DNA of 64,000 nt from NCBI RefSeq assembly GCF_010093535.1, contig NW_022985164.1:106826-170825 (forward strand), given 5' to 3'. The notes beneath the pieces were generated by a model. It was not told the DNA's origin. It made no database searches and was given only the letters and a program-made list of their open reading frames with translations. The DNA is from Lindgomyces ingoldianus (taxonomy: Eukaryota > Ascomycota > Dothideomycetes > Pleosporales > Lindgomycetaceae). The translations under genes and the position numbers were made by a program. Shown here piece after piece: positions 31,306-39,259 of the stretch; within the stretch, counting starts at the first letter, position 1; each line of letters opens with the position of its first letter.

Positions 31306-31349
31306 ACAATAGAGTTTACTTAACTCACCATGTCCATATTATCTAGCCT

Positions 31350-32080
31350 CTACTCATTTACAGCCATAAGCGAAAATGCTGTGTACGGATGCTGGCAGCC
31401 AAGGACTTGCTTCCGCAACTGGAGACATTCCTCTATTAATGCAATAGCCTCGCTATTGTAACTTTGGCACTTGAACATGCACTCCAAGTTAGCCATGCTG
31501 GCCAGTGCGTCTAGATACTCCTCCCCAAGGATCCTCTATCTGGTCTCCATCCCTTGCACCTCCAGCTCTCTTCGGCCTCCTTCCACCACCCTTGCTACCT
31601 GTACGTTGACGCTAAGTTGGACATGCATGCTGGTTAGCGTGTCTGGATGCTCCTCCCCAAGCACCCTTGTCTCCATCACTTGCACCTCCTGCTCCTTAGC
31701 ATCTCTCCACCGCCCTCTGAGCTTTCTTACTAACCCCACCACTATACTTCTTAGCGTCTCTATATGGTCTGCCTCAAGCGGCCCTGTCCTAGCTTTTGTT
31801 AACTTTGTTAGCATATTTTCTGCCTCGTCTGCGTTTCCTATTTGCCACGCGTAGCACGCGGCGTTGCACAGTAGCAGAGCCTACTCCTTGCGCGTCTCTT
31901 TGCTCTTAGGTTTCTGTGTTGACGCTGCTCTCGCATGCGGGAAAAGCCCCTAGCACTTCCCTTAATTCTCATACTGTCCTGTTAGAAACTCTAGGCAGAG
32001 GTTAGCAATAAACTGCTGTTTCTATCCTTGTATTTGCTCCTAGCTTTTAAGCTATTTTTAGGCCGCTAGCTGTACTAGAC
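31350..32080 (-). pseudogene. 3' half of NLR pseudogene: linker and tetratricopeptide repeats
   Basis: In one continuous frame the minus strand shows the classic downstream half of a fungal NB-ARC/TPR protein: SLVQLAA, then KQQFIANLCLEFLTGQYEN, GLFPHARAAS, ALLLCNAACYAWQIGNADEAENM, kinesin-light-chain-like TPR units with ETRVLGEEHPDTLTSM, and the end block SEAIALIEECLQLRKQVLG. The last unit ends with a TAG at 31350-31352, where the family usually has Trp. At least seven in-frame TAG/TAA codons interrupt it. Several sit where Trp is expected (TGG to TAG), as RIP would produce. It would have been the sensor/scaffold half of the NLR whose NB-ARC half lies at 36114-37210. Confidence 0.85.
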
Positions 32081-33306
32081 TAACGTCCGTCCCTGCGTAG
32101 CGAGATACCCTATACAGACACTCCCTAACATAACAAACTTAATAGCCGGTAGGGAAAATACATATCTTTGGAATAGTAGCCTTAAGTTATAAAGTCTACT
32201 CTCCCCTAATATCTTTTAGAAACGGGTTCTGCTTACCATGAAATACAACAATTTAGTATAAGCGTCACGCGACCACTTTGCTTTGGCTAGCAGAAGGTGC
32301 GTTAAAAGCTTATGGATCTTGTTGAAAGTCTGTTAACTTACGGCTTGTTATATCATTATCCTATCCTAAGCACTGCGCTTAAGCTTGAGAGGTTGTTGTG
32401 CTTCTGTGCTAATTCTAAGTCCGCCTGCTAGAAGTGCTAGATAAGGAGGACCCGCACGCCTAGCTTAAAGCAGCTTAGCTGTAATCTATCGCGGCTTAGA
32501 CCTGTGTATGGCGCCTTTGTCAAGCGCTCCAGGACACCTGAAAACCGGCTCGGATTGGGAGCAGGGCTAGGTTAAAGGCGCTGGTGTCTAGCTCGTGTCA
32601 ACAAACATACGCAGCATCGAAGCTGTAACTAGCTTCCGATACAGCCGTTCGAGACGTAGTGCAGTAGATGACTATAGCTAATGTGAACGCTTCCATGCCA
32701 TAGAGATACACCATCGCGCTGCGCTACAGCTCCGCAGACTCGCTGTTGATCCATTATCCAACCCATCACGTCTTCGTCCTTCTTAAGCACATCGCAACCA
32801 ACACATATACGCATGATACAGAATACTAAGATCCAAGTCTAGGCTTCAGCAAGCGGAGTGAGTATTACTAGAAGGACGCCACGCCTAGACTTAGCCACAG
32901 AACCTGAGGTGCTCGAGTGACTCTAAGGCAACAAGCGCTGGCGGCCTAAGCGCTTCGCTTTTAACGCAATACGGCTCTTCAAAGACAAGAAGCCGTCGGC
33001 GTTATTAAATTATGTAATAGAGCCAATTAAGATACCATACAGTAAGTGTAAAGAAAGGTGCGTTGTACTGTAAGTAGATACGACGCGGATTCCTAGTGCA
33101 ATTACAGAATGTTGCTGGTGATAGGATTGTCGGTACAGTCTAAAGATGTTGTAATTAGGCAGTTTGATAGATATCTGGTGCAATAAGTTCACTAATGAAC
33201 AATTAGTTCTAAGCTGAACCTTTTCCCTTTTCCCTTATCAATTATGTGACTCTACGTGCTAGTGTTGCTTTGCTTCCGTACCACGCGGCGAATATCTAGT
33301 ATTGAG

Positions 33307-33811
33307 AATGAGTGATTTTTATTGTTACTATTAGGCTCTTGGAGAGAGCGGGTAAATGCACATAACGCTAAGAGACTAGCTATGGAGCAACAGTGTTCTA
33401 AACCACTGATGCTTAACAGAAAAGCTCGTGCGATTGAAAAGTTAGCAGGATTAAAAGGTTTGTGCGATTGAAAAGCTTGTGCGTGTCAAACATCAGTTGT
33501 GAGAGGTATTGAGCAGGAATCATGAGGCACAGAGAGGGAATGCAGGATAAGGGGCTGTATGGCAGAGCCACAAGAGAGAGAGTAAACCATAAGGTCAGAA
33601 GCAGATGTACGGAGGCCGAGGAGCCTATATCCCCCGTGCCAAGCCGTTAGGGTACTCAGGGGTTGGATAGTTGTAACATAACCGTGACATCAGTGATGTT
33701 AAACATCAGTAGTTTAGAACACTGTTGCAACATAGCGGTAGCCTCTCGGCGTTATGTACATACGCCGGCTCTCCCTAGAGGCCTAATAGTAACAATGGCA
33801 ATTACTCATCT
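33307..33811. mobile_element. Fold-back (long terminal inverted repeat) element
   Basis: About 110 bp at 33307-33418 recur in inverse orientation at 33703-33811. Shared words include TTGTTACTATTAGG and CAACAGTGTTCTAAAC on the left, with their complements on the right. The central part holds short AAAAGCTYGTGCGATTG repeats and a solo LTR. No coding frame is present. It looks like a MITE or fold-back transposon. Confidence 0.7.
33498..33689 (-). mobile_element. Solo LTR, same family as the LTRs at 41622 and 51302
   Basis: In minus orientation it starts TGTCACGGTTATG and ends CCTCTCACA, matching the 174-bp LTRs of the large retrotransposon over nearly its whole length, with an 18-bp length difference. 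A perfect 5-bp target duplication, TCAGT, flanks it at 33493-33497 and 33690-33694. Its LTR-internal TATA-like ATATAG before GCTCCTCGG is kept. It is less RIP-mutated than the other copies. Confidence 0.85.
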
Positions 33812-33940
33812 TTAACACATATAAGCCTCTTATCATAAGCCTCTTGCACTAATGCTTTCTCTCTAACTTATAACCACCTCTTTCATCGCCGCGCTGCGCT
33901 CTCTTCCCGCCCTCCACTGATCAAGGTCCCACATGAGCCC

Positions 33941-34318
33941 CTAGTGACAGAACACCTTCATTGAGTGGAAGTACTGAATGTCAATGCAATCATCGGCAAT
34001 ACTCGTGCTGACCTGGCGCTCCGCACCAGTGCAGTCTCGGTTACGGTAGATAAAGACTAAACCTTTCATTAGCGACCTTTTGTTCGATCCCGGAATCTGG
34101 TACTTACCGCGGCAGGTGTCCGCGATGTACTTGACATCCAGACGATCTCTAGGGAGGGGCTTGCAGCCATCATCGGCGTAACTGTACCCATCTCCTCCTA
34201 CTCCCAAGGTGCAGGCCACATTGCCGCCATAGACATTGAATTTCACCGCGGGGTCCACCACAGCCGAGACTGAAGGGAGAGCGACCGCGAAGATTGAGAG
34301 GAGAATTGTTTTGAGCAT
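33941..34318 (-). CDS. Small secreted six-cysteine protein (effector-like)
   Basis: The protein starts with a clear signal peptide (MLKTILLSIFAVALPSVSA). The open frame is 125 codons, but it contains a very good 45-nt in-frame intron (34063..34107: GTAAGT donor, GCTAATG branch, AAAG acceptor), leaving 110 aa. The mature part is about 90 aa with six cysteines, none in the removed segment, consistent with three disulfides. Small size, secretion and even cysteine number fit a candidate effector or other apoplastic protein. I know no function for it. It lies within the 4-kb TIR element and has its own TATA box. No stops or frameshifts are present, unlike the surrounding repeats. Confidence 0.75.
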   Translation of the reverse strand: MLKTILLSIFAVALPSVSAVVDPAVKFNVYGGNVACTLGVGGDGYSYADDGCKPLPRDRLDVKYIADTCRGKYQIPGSNKRSLMKGLVFIYRNRDCTGAERQVSTSIADDCIDIQYFHSMKVFCH

Positions 34319-34437
34319 TTTAAAGGTTAAAAGAGTGAAGAAGTTGAGGTGGCACTTAGTAGATTTAACGTTGTAATCTTGAAGGAGAGTTGAAAGCTTG
34401 AGGTTGTTGTGATGAATCTAGCAGGACACTAGCAGTA

Positions 34438-34445
34438 TATTTATA
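34438..34445 (-). promoter_or_regulatory. TATA box of the secreted-protein gene
   Basis: TATAAATA on the minus strand, 120 bp before the start codon, within an AT-rich palindromic context (TATAGTATAAATATACT). Position and consensus fit a core promoter. Confidence 0.5.
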
Positions 34446-34470
34446 CTATAATGACATCTAGCTTTTCTAC

Positions 34471-34486
34471 GTCTGTTTAAACAGAC
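34471..34486. repeat. Perfect 16-bp palindrome
   Basis: GTCTGTTTAAACAGAC is a perfect palindrome. It sits upstream of the secreted-protein TATA box and just outside the large inverted repeat that starts near 34491, so it could be a regulator site or a relic of an insertion. Confidence 0.6.
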
Positions 34487-34490
34487 TAAC

Positions 34491-35210
34491 TCTTCTTGAT
34501 CCCGAGTATACAGCTTTGATGCACCAGCGTTGGGCTCTCTAGCGATGTCCATGAATTGTTGGTGAGGCTACACCGCCGAAGTATCTGCTTAGGCCACACC
34601 CGAGCAGCCGCCATGAATCCGGAATGTTCGACATTCAGTAGTTAGCTGGAAGGATTAAAATTCAATTTAATCAATGAGCTGAAAGCTGAGAAACGCGGTG
34701 TCGCCCCTTGGCACCTAGCATGCTAAGCTTTACCGGTATCCAGTGTTGCACAAGAAAACTGAACTCTATGTCCACTCGCTGCAAGCTTTCTCTGCGGTTT
34801 GTTTGGCACTCATGGTCGCTTTACTTAGGCATATGTATTTTGGCGCTCTCATTGTTCGAAAGAGCCAGGGGTGCGAAGCTAAAATAACTAATGAATTCGT
34901 AAGTTTCGACCGTGGTTGACCCCTCATGCTATAGCGCGCAAATATGGATAAACACGACCCACCCCTACGATGCAGTGCACTATATCCTCAGCCCATTTCG
35001 AGTACCATCCTACTACGCTGATTTGCGTCTAAAACAGACGACGTGCGCGCGGTGCCCGACTTTCGCAAACATTCCGGATTCATGGCCGCTGCTCGGGTGT
35101 GACCTGATTAGATACTTCGGCGGTGTAGCCTCACCCCGATAATTCATGGACATTGCTGGTGAGCCAAACGCTAGTGCATCGAAGGTGTATACTCGGGGTC
35201 AAGAACAGTC
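34491..35210. mobile_element. Non-autonomous element with about 135-bp inverted repeats
   Basis: The sequence 34491-34626 recurs inverted at 35076-35210 with high identity. For example, GGTGAGGCTACACCGCCGAA and GCCATGAATCCGGAATGTT occur in both arms. The 450 bp between the arms carry no supported gene; a 76-codon plus-strand frame lies partly in the right arm. It resembles a MITE with long terminal inverted repeats. I could not fix a target duplication. Confidence 0.7.
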
Positions 35211-36060
35211 AGTCATGCCCACTGTGTGAGACCGTCCCGCCCGACTCTGTCCTAGACGTTGCTCATTGTATTCCTCTTCAACGTGCCGAAGCGATATTTG
35301 GTTGCTGCTTGGTATATATATAGGTTACGCTGTGCTCGAGAGGCAGGAAGACGTGATGGGTGGGAGGGGTCAACGGCGGGTCTGGGGAGCTGGAGGGCGA
35401 TGCGATGGTTCGTCTCTATAGCATGGAAGCTTCCACCTTAGGTGCGGTCATCCCTTGCACTACATCTCGAAGTTGTACGACGGCTGTGTCGGAAGCTGAT
35501 TGCGGTTCGCGGTTTCACGGTTTTAAGGCCGGATTGGCTTTGAAGATAAACGCTCGGGCTTGAGAACCTCCGTGCTGCTCCCAATCCAAAGCCGGATTTT
35601 AGATGTCCCGCAGCGCTTGGTAATGGCGCTGCACAGCCACGGGTCCGCTAGTCGTCACAAATAAATTACACTAACGATGGGGTGGGACGTGCAGGACGTT
35701 TGCACGAACGAGTATCGGCGTCGATCGACGTGGCGACGCCACATGAAGTTGCGCGCCACAGCAGACGCAAGGCTGATGATGACTTGCTAGTATTTTAGAG
35801 AGGCTTTGAGGCTAGCATAAGGCTTTTTTATAAAAATTCGGAGCGAAAAAGACGTACCGTCGGTGCTGTGGGATGGGAAGTTTGTTACTCTACGAAGAAG
35901 GCGCTTACAAATTAGGCGTGGAGGCGACGATGCAAACGTAATTTTTAAGGAAGAGTGATAATGGAGATTCAGGATTAGCTACAGCTGATTACTTCCACGG
36001 AATTATAGCAACATTCGTTGTGCGCATGGGCTTTCAGCCGCTGAAAATCAAAGTAACTTA
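35211..36060. other. Right flank of the 4-kb TIR element; no gene
   Basis: The frames at 35259-35563 are short and unsupported. A segment near 35565-35622 is inversely similar to 32521-32575 in the left part of the same element. Confidence 0.45.
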
Positions 36061-36113
36061 CCCCTCATTTGTCTCGCCACACAGGGTCTCTCGCTACACA
36101 GGGATGCACATTA

Positions 36114-37210
36114 TTCATTTTAACGTATTCGTATCTGTTGCAACAGAGATAAACAAGTAGTCTTGTAGTTAGTGTGAGAACATCATCTTCAAACCCGTTG
36201 TCGATGCTGGCTTCTGAGATACTATCATCCTCGTTACTGTCTGTATTATGTTCCTTGTCTGACTCTGCACTACTGTACTTATTTCCCATAGTGCCCTAGT
36301 CGCGAAGTAGGGCTTTAAGGACCTCCTGTCGGTTAAACAAGCTCACAAGCGACAAGAGGCTAGCTACTGATTGTCCTGTACTTCGGATATGCTCAAATAA
36401 TATCTGCTACGTAATGATGATAGAGTTCTTGGCTTCTTCGTCTCTTCGGAGATGCCCGGTTTCTGGTTTAGTAGACTTGTCTTTCTTTTGTCGCTCCTAC
36501 AGCATTCCTTAGGTATTGTCCCACCAAATATCTCGGTGCTCGATGTCGGATATATGCTGCCTCCCGCACGAGAGCGAGTGGCATGTGCTCTAACGCTGTT
36601 GCTAACTCAGCAATGCCATCTTTTTTGGCATTGTCTCCTAGCTTCCTGTCAAGGGGAGCTTGTGTACCTTCATCTTGCATCGGCTAAATTAATATGGTAT
36701 CGCTGTCCTCAACCAGCCGTGATGCTACATGCTTCGCCCGACTGGTGAAAAGGAGCAAGCCATACTTATTCGGAGGTAGATACCTCGACATGTGCTGCGG
36801 AAGAGCGCCGTTTCCGCCGTCCGCCTACGTCTTCTGGCTCTTGCATGATGGAGAGAGAATAGCAGCGCTGTCGGCCTTGTCGAGGACTAGCAACCACTTC
36901 CCGTGTTTCTCGTCGCGGAGCCAGTCGTGGACAAGCTTAAAGACGTTTGCTTGTTGGTCTTTCCGGCCAGCAAGCTTGAGTCGGTGCGCAATGTCTCGGA
37001 AGCTTTACTCAAGGCGGGCTGCATTGCTTGCGTGCACCCAGAACACCCATGTGTCTGGTGATGCTCCCACGATACGATAGCAGTGTTCGATGGCGAGCTG
37101 CGATTTCTTTTTCGCATGTTAGGTACGAGCATTGACCCATCAATTACTTGCGCGTGGCCCAAGGCGTCGCCGAGCACGACCCCGCGGTTGTTAGAGATCG
37201 CATTGGACCC
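36114..37210 (-). pseudogene. 5' half of NLR pseudogene: N-terminal motif and NB-ARC domain
   Basis: On the minus strand a short N-terminal motif with ISNNRGVVLG (37151-37201) comes first. It is followed in a shifted frame by NB-ARC: SQLAIEHCYRIVGASPDTWV, KHGKWLLVLDKAD (Walker B-like), ALEHMPLALVREAAYIRHRAP (GLPL-type MPLAL), EAKNSIIIT, FEHIRSTGQS, VASLLSLVSLF, FEDDVLTLT and SFISVATDTNTF. The Walker A glycines are gone; AKKKSQ stands where GxGKS is expected. There are in-frame stops and several frameshifts. The downstream TPR half is at 31350-32080 beyond the inserted element. Fungal NB-ARC/TPR NLRs sense a signal and trigger an effector through the N-terminal domain or motif. The gene runs head to head with the hydrolase gene. 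Confidence 0.85.
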
Positions 37211-37584
37211 TGCAGTTTTTAAAGATTGTATTGAACCCCTTCGCGCCTGTTGAGACTGTCAGCGCGCTGTCAGTCATTGTGTTTCAGGATAATCTCGTAT
37301 ATAGAAACTTTAAACTGTGTTAAATCCGTATTCATAGCACTCGAAGATGCCAGCTCAGACGTATCGCATGAGCTGAGCGTGGCTGAGCTGGAAAGCAAAG
37401 CCTTGCACAAGGCGCTCAATTTATCCAATGGTCGTAGACGCGCCTGCAATACTAATAACACGCCAAGCCATGATGCCTATTGGAAGATAACTCGGGCGGG
37501 GCTTAATGCACGATTACAATACTTCGTCCTAGTCCCTCCATCACTACCTACCTACCTAGACCGCTTCTTTGCTACATTATCAAC
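37211..37584. promoter_or_regulatory. Shared interval between NLR pseudogene and hydrolase gene
   Basis: About 375 bp separate the NLR N-terminal motif from the hydrolase start codon. The plus-strand frame through here (37250-37642) has no family features. Head-to-head spacing suggests a common promoter region. I see no clear TATA box. Confidence 0.45.
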
Positions 37585-38759
37585 ATGGCAGAACAGTACG
37601 GATTGGGAGACCCCCTTTTTGATCCTCAGGAGGCTAAAATAGAGTATGGAGAACCGCCTTATCTACCTAAAACCTAAGCTAACAAGGCAGCATCGTCTTC
37701 ATACATGGACTCGGTGGCAATAGGACCAGTACTTGGACATGGGAGGGAGACGGTAGGAAACTTTTCTGGCCGAAAGATCTACTGCCGCAAGACTGTCCAA
37801 CAGCTCGAATTCTTTCTTTTGGTTACAATGCTGAATTCGCCCACTTCTTTCCTTTCTACGGGCCGAAATTTATGCCAGAGAAGTCAACCATCGACAACCA
37901 TTCGACTGCGCTATTACGGAGCCTGACTGGCTTGCGTGACAAAACTAAGACTGTAAGGAAAAGGCGAGCGTATATCTTGTTTCGCGTCAAATTAGCTGAG
38001 AACATGTCCAACTCTAGGCAAATCGCCCAGTGATTTTCGTCTGTCATAGCCTTGGAGGCCTTGTTTGCGCCAACGCACTGTCAAGGTATCACGGGGCGGA
38101 CCTAGCCAGCGCCGGCCTCGTGGAGAAAACAGCTGGGGTTGTCTTTCTCGGAACACCGTTCGAAGGAACTTCAAAGGCGAAGTGGGCCGGGAGGGCGCTT
38201 AAAGTCTTAGACTGGGTAAGCACAACGCACAAGGAAGATGTGAAGGATCTAGAAGAGCGTTCGGCAAATCTCACGAATATCAACGATACTTTCCAGAAGT
38301 TTCTCAAAGCACGGGACCGGTCAGAAACAGGACAGTTTGTCGAGGTAGCCTGTTTCTTCGAGCAGTATGCCATGTACAAGGCTGGGAAAAAGATTGGAAT
38401 CATCGTACCTAAGGAGTCAGCTTGTCTGCCCGGTATCGACCCGCAGTCGATCCAAGCCAACCACGTTGACATGTGTAAGTTCGAGGATGACGACAGGGAG
38501 GGATATAAAAACATTTCGCAACGGTTAAGTCAATGGATATCGGATCTTGACGGGCCGCTTAAGGGTTCTACTGCTAAAACCCAGGTTTGGCTGACGTCCT
38601 ACACATCTGAAGCTATCTGACAGCGGACAGACACACTCGGTGTACATGGGCGACGTCAACTATCGCGACAAGATTGAGAACAACCAGGGGGTGGTAATGG
38701 GCCATGCCTACAGCACGGCCACAGACGGGGTCAGAATAATCGGGAGCACCCACGTATGA
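37585..38759 (+). CDS. SesB-type alpha/beta hydrolase with C-terminal amyloid-like motif
   Basis: The model has exons 37585..37643, 37691..37952, 38018..38584 and 38631..38759 (338 aa). Intron 1 (GTATGG, GCTAAC branch) joins DPQEAKID to IVFIHGLGGNRTSTW. Intron 2 (GTAAGG, CTCTAG) joins to ANRPVIFVCHSLGGLV. Residues include the oxyanion HGLGG, the nucleophile Ser in CHSLGG and the likely catalytic His in NHVDMCKF. This is the lipase/esterase-like domain found at the N-terminus of many fungal NLRs and in stand-alone SesB effectors. Without a third intron it stops at 38620 (307 aa). With the proposed intron (38585..38630, weak GTTTGG donor, good CTGAC branch) it gains 42 residues containing KIENNQGVVMGHAYS. 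That motif matches the N-terminal motif of the adjacent NLR. No lesions are seen, in contrast to the NLR. Confidence 0.75.
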
Positions 38760-39259
38760 AGTCACCAAACTGTTGCGACGCTGATATATCTGCTAATGAG
38801 ATATACAGAATACATACAACGGCGTTAACCCGAATAATTTGTAGCCGAACGCTGGGTAGGAAAGAGTGCACGTTGTCGCACTTGACTTCGTCTCACGTGA
38901 TCCTGCGTTAAGGTGAATGTGGGTCCTTGTGTTGCACTAGTAACCTATCCAGGGCCAGCACCTACTACTTTGGACTAGCGCAGCTTTGTATGATATATAT
39001 CCACCTGGAGCTCCTCCAGGTTCCTCAAACTTTACACAATCGCTCCATCTTGGCTTTCACTACCTAATTGGTCCCTCGCACGTCTATATGGTCTCTATCA
39101 ATCAACTCTAACCGTGCGATAGTCAATTTCCAGACTGGTTCCTGTAGGAACGTACGGTGGTTGCGGTTGAGGGAGATGGTTTCTAATAGTATTGATATAG
39201 CTGTGGATACGGCTACAGTGGCCTTGCGAAAGTCTGAAATGAGAAACTCTAGAGCTTGA
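38760..39259. other. Intergenic stretch downstream of the hydrolase gene
   Basis: It holds a TATATAT stretch near 38993 and a CTGGAGCTCCTCCAG palindromic element near 39005. A 63-codon frame at 39068-39259 is unsupported. This could be the promoter of the uncertain gene that follows. Confidence 0.35.

Follow-up and report, generated by a model that had tools for sequence, protein, structure and literature searches.

A SesB-like hydrolase and a dead NLR gene with homologous terminal motifs in Lindgomyces ingoldianus: probable remains of an amyloid-type signalling module

Known motif systems and the layout of the locus

Templating of an amyloid-type fold by a receptor onto a separate effector is the idea put forward in the published accounts of NWD2 and HET-S, of PNT1 with HELLP and the putative lipase SBP, and of HET-eN with SesA and SesB (PMC5485727, PMC3321046, PMC7885112). 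Four to five families of fungal amyloid-signalling motifs are in print according to the text of PMC12261475: HRAM, sigma, PP and PUASM 1-2. The PP pattern is given as FxGx(x)NxGLQLxGxNxGxL and that of sigma as GxGxQFNxx/GGTQNINT in the text of PMC3321046; for PUASM (PNP_UDP-associated motif), the text of PMC9815663 gives FxGxGxQxxGxGxF.

The locus studied here lies in a 64,000-nucleotide stretch of DNA from Lindgomyces ingoldianus, of the Pleosporales (the window), which belongs to contig C3 of its genome (G000). A preliminary description had seen in it a head-to-head NLR gene and alpha/beta hydrolase gene, the effector intact and the receptor dead. Both observations hold: the divergent start codons lie 307 bp apart and the hydrolase has an open five-exon frame, whereas the NLR carries stops, lacks the Walker A stretch and is split by a 4.04-kb insert. 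The features are as follows.

37585..38844, + strand: SesB-like alpha/beta hydrolase gene, intact, 348 aa, five exons
37585-37643, 37691-37952, 38018-38584, 38631-38753 and 38809-38841, + strand: hydrolase exons, with the stop codon at 38842-38844
37644-37690, 37953-38017, 38585-38630 and 38754-38808, + strand: hydrolase introns, all GT..AG
38631..38841, + strand: C-terminal tail with the shared motif (HSVYMGDVNYRDKIENNQGVVMGHAYSTATDGVRIIGSTH, intron 38754-38808, NTYNG), conserved in hydrolase relatives
37278..37584, no strand: 307 bp separating the start codons of the divergent genes (312 bp at a second, likewise arranged locus, C8)
37215..37277, - strand: start of the NLR (MTDSALTVSTGAK...), in a frame that differs from that of the motif; 67% identity to P0234 residues 1-21
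37142..37204, - strand: N-terminal motif remnant of the NLR pseudogene (AISNNRGVVLGDALGHAQVID); hydrolase-tail HMM E 0.0019, 62% identity to P0234 residues 16-36
36170..37106, - strand: NB-ARC part of the dead NLR; P0234 residues 99-308 at 37106-36474 and 313-412 at 36463-36170
32078..36116, no strand: 4.04-kb insert with 34-nt terminal inverted repeats (28/34 identical; inverted pair I7, alignment), splitting the NB-ARC from the TPR parts
31329..32081, - strand: TPR remnants of the dead NLR, matched by P0234, P0135 and P0122; TPR_12 at 4.1e-5, below its curated cut-off

The public gene model of the hydrolase (P0001, L. ingoldianus) is 100% identical over the 338 residues of the model that we derived from the window, and it adds one further 3' intron, giving the C-terminal end ...GSTHNTYNGVNPNNL. 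The last exon was placed from P0001 and by tblastn, and the C-terminal sequence contains ...KIENNQGVVMGHAYSTATDGVRIIGSTHNTYNG.... The splice into the tail exon, as first proposed, is the same in our model and in P0001; the final intron, visible in P0001, had been missed. That the tail exon goes unused was rejected, given the splice in P0001 and the tails aligned in relatives. In Pfam, P0001 exceeds the cut-off for Abhydrolase_6 (27.1 bits against 26.3) and falls 0.1 bit below that for DUF676 (20.2 against 20.3), as fits the effector class, and among its relatives one is named SesB-related and one SesB. P0001-P0003 and several relatives bear the public name 'putative ribonuclease p/mrp subunit'; beside the Abhydrolase_6 and borderline DUF676 assignments, this seems to be a misannotation. 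Residues 103-206 of P0001 also weakly match the PADLOC model PDLC02918 (DUF626_VIII, E 3.1e-6), an anti-phage candidate model.

A PDB sequence search with the third-exon frame of the hydrolase gave no relevant match, and the 50 Foldseek matches listed from PDB were general alpha/beta hydrolases with low TM-scores (TMq 0.30-0.43) that pointed to no specific function. The AF2 model of the effector has a mean pLDDT of 75.9, with a mostly confident core that is weak near residues 71-80 and 157-190, and the tail blocks score 38-62. Such low predicted confidence is expected where a tail takes on its fold in the assembled state only, but equally for any disordered tail.

The NLR of the window is a dead pseudogene. 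When aligned to P0234, from Dendryphion nanum, it is missing the equivalent of residues 37-98, Walker A included, and has four stops inside the main NB-ARC match. The match breaks off at 36170 and picks up again at 32081, beyond the insert, where P0234 residues 431-833 match down to 31368. RIP was considered as the cause of death and set aside for want of a strong signal (TpA/ApT 0.93, (CpA+TpG)/(ApC+GpT) 1.17 over 36050-37281). The insert holds further inverted pairs, I2/I3 at 34484-35214, I4/I6 at 33299-33818 and I1/I5 at 32648-35471. It also contains a 158-aa open frame (33941-34417, - strand) with a stretch that by eye resembles a signal peptide (MLKTILLSIFAVALPSVSA); this frame, for which Pfam gave nothing at E up to 1, possibly encodes a small secreted protein.

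The motif on the hydrolase tail and the NLR N-terminus

The two peptides on which the preliminary description based a common motif are both present, and eight of their 14 aligned positions are identical, as claimed. The NLR peptide AISNNRGVVLGDALG is found at 37201-37157 (- strand) within the frame 36890-37258; the hydrolase peptide KIENNQGVVMGHAYS is at 38670-38714 (+ strand), about 15 bases downstream of the 38655-38700 first given for it.

The tail is better conserved than the linker that precedes it. Of 150 hydrolase relatives, 120 were listed, and for 68 of these the alignment covered 28 or more tail residues. Mean majority identity for core, linker and tail was 0.88, 0.44 and 0.77 among eight close relatives and 0.60, 0.24 and 0.37 among the 68. 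Sixty of the 74 listed relatives of at least 280 residues have an aligned tail; the other 14 end earlier, some of them at the intron, or differ. A GVQ-x-G core occurs in 4 of the 68 aligned tails, and these C-termini (P0047, P0064, P0066 and P0071) are PP/RHIM-like where most aligned tails show GVV or a like triplet.

An HMM was built from 56 of the 68 tails, with P0001, which is the window's own, and fragmentary or odd tails left out (12 altogether). Against the 2461 stop-to-stop frames of at least 15 residues in all six frames of the window, it matched the hydrolase tail at E 7.5e-22 and the NLR frame at 0.0019, while the next frame scored 1.2 and the rest worse. The NLR fragment scored 18.1 bits; among 2000 shuffles, of which 1953 were reported, the highest score was 12.0. 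Six of eight NLR N-termini beat every shuffle; that of P0157 (11.2) and the copy on contig C1 (9.0) did not. Chance resemblance of the two motifs was rejected on these E-values and shuffles.

The similarity extends over some 35 columns and takes in another conserved segment, I-x-G-S/T-x-T-x-N. A profile of seven other NLR N-termini (P0234, P0135, P0157 and four from the L. ingoldianus genome) matched a profile of 17 hydrolase tails at 94.9% (E 4.4e-8, 35 columns), so that the claim of a motif common to receptor and effector was borne out beyond the window as well as by the HMM within it. The motif is paired and specific in position: in the window remnant and the seven other NLRs it stands N-terminally, before the NOD, and its homologue stands at the C-terminus of a separate effector. 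When the same seven-NLR profile was compared with 30 sister NLRs of the N-x-G-phi-Q-x-G type, again at their N-termini, the match was 0.7% (E 0.077), or 4.5% (E 0.0089) for the GLQ subset. Taken against either side, NLRs or tails, the 30 Q-type N-termini gave 0.7-5.4% (E 0.007-0.08) in the expected register. As judged from these profiles, the N-termini of the motif-bearing receptors are closer to the effector tail than to the corresponding part of sister NLRs, as would be expected of a paired signalling motif.

Exon shuffling via a shared intron was discarded as an origin for the motif pair. An intron lies near the motif end in both genes, but the phases differ, being 0 after GSTH in the hydrolase and best read as 1, in the glycine of IVG, in the NLRs. 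They are therefore not the same intron, and no claim is made from them.

Motif-bearing loci in Lindgomyces and in other fungi

The database check set out in the preliminary description came out in its favour, with the motif present on NLRs and on hydrolases of other fungi. Among 120 NLR relatives listed of 1927, the motif is present in three, the Q type in 30 and neither in 87. The three, P0234 (Dendryphion), P0135 (Neocucurbitaria) and P0157 (Lobaria), start with versions of TGAKxFGAISxNxGVVxGDASGxAxIxGSQTxN; the tail profile matches P0234 and P0135 at E 6e-5 and 2e-4, and P0157 weakly at 0.075, below the threshold. Neocucurbitaria cava has the NLR N0V83_007612 and the hydrolase N0V83_007611, which come from contigs of equal length and whose adjacency is indicated by their consecutive locus tags only. 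In Dendryphion nanum, the records of the motif-bearing NLR (P0234, longest contig 1,515,542) and a hydrolase (P0003, contig 1,860,979) give no indication of adjacency. A region search with the N-terminus of P0135 across the protein set matched P0135 alone (1 of 14 candidates).

Searched against the L. ingoldianus genome, the N-terminus from N. cava gave nine matches: C4 (2.2e-9), C8 (8.1e-6), C1 (1.4e-5), C25 (4.9e-4), the window (0.009), the weaker C5, C15 and C13, and C17, which was dropped as sitting in a repetitive frame. A composite query recovered C25, C4, C1, C8, C5, C13 and C15 again. The motif tail was found on at least two effectors in this genome, those of C3 and C8.

C8 carries a second head-to-head NLR/hydrolase pair, so that the genes are adjacent at both C3 and C8. 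Its hydrolase is 84% identical to that of the window over residues 107-302, and part of the intergenic gap aligns as well (76%). Its receptor combines NPHP3_N/NACHT with ankyrin repeats, whereas that of C4 has NB-ARC and TPR, like the remnants in the window; next to copies of one effector, the motif thus occurs on receptors of two different architectures. The C8 receptor has an open frame as far as the examined sequence reaches. Exon 2 of the C8 effector is interrupted by about 1.77 kb (L021 3034-4802) of roughly 35% GC, with the inverted ends CAGTCAACTC/GAGTTGACTG next to TA, as in Tc1/mariner-type elements. Decay at the two loci is reciprocal, in that C3 has a dead receptor and an intact effector, and C8 an open receptor frame and an effector split by an insert. 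The dN/dS ratio between the two hydrolases is 0.13 for the third exon and 0.19 for the tail, the latter from 12 changes and with the C8 copy itself broken.

C1 and C25 have only hydrolase relicts head-to-head with an NLR, and no hydrolase match was found in the 1.5 kb upstream of the C4 NLR. The C4 and C1 NLRs have long open frames with Walker A; at C25, a possible intron breaks up the Walker A stretch. Since the C4 and C1 frames are long and that of C8 is open, several possible receptors for the intact effector exist elsewhere in the genome. With the local receptor dead, any receptors that still act on the effector are probably these other motif-bearing NLRs (C4, C1, C8). At 19 other hydrolase loci, the pattern N-x-G-[FLIVYM]-[QV]-x-G was matched in frames of at least 30 residues only at C1; the pattern misses the C25 copy, which has GAV. 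Six of 19 loci examined (L023, L024, L025, L026, L036 and L037) have hydrolase and then NB-ARC/TPR matches in order on one strand, an arrangement that would fit integrated SesB-NLR proteins.

Interpretation and comparison with known systems

We propose that the locus is probably the remains of a two-gene NLR/effector module that signals via an amyloid-type motif, with a SesB-like (DUF676) effector. The paired homologous motif, the adjacency at C3 and C8 and the presence of the motif in other fungi support the signalling-pair reading of the preliminary description. The hydrolase would combine a folded enzyme core with an unfolded C-terminal signalling motif, and the divergent NB-ARC/TPR receptor would have borne the homologous motif at its N-terminus. 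On receptor oligomerisation, the clustered motifs could nucleate a beta-rich (amyloid) template, which would recruit and convert the effector tail and so bring hydrolases together. Clustered in this way, the enzymes may gain lipase or esterase activity and damage the cell. Amyloid templating, enzyme activation and cell death are suggested for this locus by analogy with NWD2/HET-S, PNT1/SBP and HET-eN/SesB.

The motif of a true homologous receptor-effector module might instead be an ordinary soluble docking motif, which we consider unlikely. It is true that the sequences reveal homology common to both partners and not fibre formation, and that the core is GVV and not the Q-bearing core of PP and RHIM. 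However, known fungal amyloid motifs, as the texts of PMC3321046 and PMC9815663 present them, have the same length, place, G/N content and N-x-G-phi-x-phi-G skeleton, and the same motif on both partners would suit self-templating better than unlike docking surfaces. There is very little probability that the tail is the hydrolase's own conserved part, for membrane anchoring or autoinhibition, and its resemblance to the NLR secondary or fortuitous. Tail-bearing hydrolases do span many Pezizomycotina genera, most without a demonstrated receptor, but such a tail would leave unexplained the window-wide E of 0.0019 with the next match about 600 times weaker, the profile match to other NLRs and the head-to-head placement at both C3 and C8.

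A further reading, compatible with amyloid signalling as such, takes the motif for a drifted member of the plain PP (RHIM-like) family; this seems to us rather doubtful. The register is that of the sister NLRs, with N-x-G-phi-[Q/V]-phi-G in the profile alignments, and GVQ-x-G does appear in the four tails of the same hydrolase family. On the other hand, the profile comparison with Q-type N-termini is poor, Q is absent on both partners, and the I-x-G-S/T-x-T-x-N segment is extra. Pfam Ses_B hits GLQ-type sister NLRs, with P0127 and P0141 above its cut-off, whereas it gave no match for P0234, P0157 or P0001, nor among the best 25 of 29 matches of P0135, in a search with E up to 5 whose filters drop most matches above 0.1; the window's tail and NLR pieces had none at E up to 1.

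The motif of the proposed module may represent an undescribed family. The literature text searched yielded no description of it, and logo figures and supplements, such as Fig E of S1 Text in PMC9815663, lie outside that text and may hold an earlier listing. Tentatively, at somewhat less than an even chance, we suggest jointly that this is a further amyloid motif family, in which V replaces the PP/RHIM Q on both partners to give a channel insulated from PP, and that Lindgomyces has many-to-one wiring, in which NLRs of two NOD types, their own effectors absent, decayed or split, converge on the intact hydrolase of the window. Lacking Q on both partners, such a relative of the RHIM-like class would make it possible to test what determines specificity in the RHIM/PP amyloid core. 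The two duplicate loci, each decayed in the opposite partner, offer a natural test of receptor-effector signalling across loci, which the text of PMC9815663 raises as a possibility for other motifs.

The motif fits no HET-s-related, PP or sigma pattern, as first reported, by pattern reading and by the Ses_B searches. The PUASM system resembles the present one in its enzyme effector with a C-terminal motif and its cognate NLR (as described in the text of PMC9815663), but its effector is a phosphorylase (PNP_UDP) and here it is an alpha/beta hydrolase; read against the published pattern, the window motif does not follow FxGxGxQxxGxGxF. HET-S/NWD2, of the HRAM family, has the same two-gene layout and proposed templating logic. 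It differs in its HeLo effector and 21-residue motif, and no HET-s family is among the Pfam matches listed, so that HRAM is set apart by Pfam and by effector class. In the PP system CgPNT1/CgHELLP/CgSBP of Chaetomium globosum, as its published text has it, there are likewise an NLR N-terminal motif, a putative lipase effector (SBP) and clustered genes (PMC7885112, PMC5485727), and the motif here has the N-x-G-phi-x-phi-G skeleton of PP. The central Q of G-(I,V)-Q-(I,V)-G is V here on both partners, however: the window has GVVLG/GVVMG in place of GxQxG, and none of the seven aligned NLRs has Q there. PP also has a HeLo-like partner (CgHELLP), whereas the window module is known here as NLR and hydrolase only. 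The sigma submotifs GxGxQFNxx and GGTQNINT, in their published form, are absent from the window motif. The sesA/sesB/het-eN sigma locus of Nectria haematococca, as the text of PMC3321046 presents it, is like the present locus in having a SesB-type hydrolase beside a STAND receptor, with a terminal extension shared between them.
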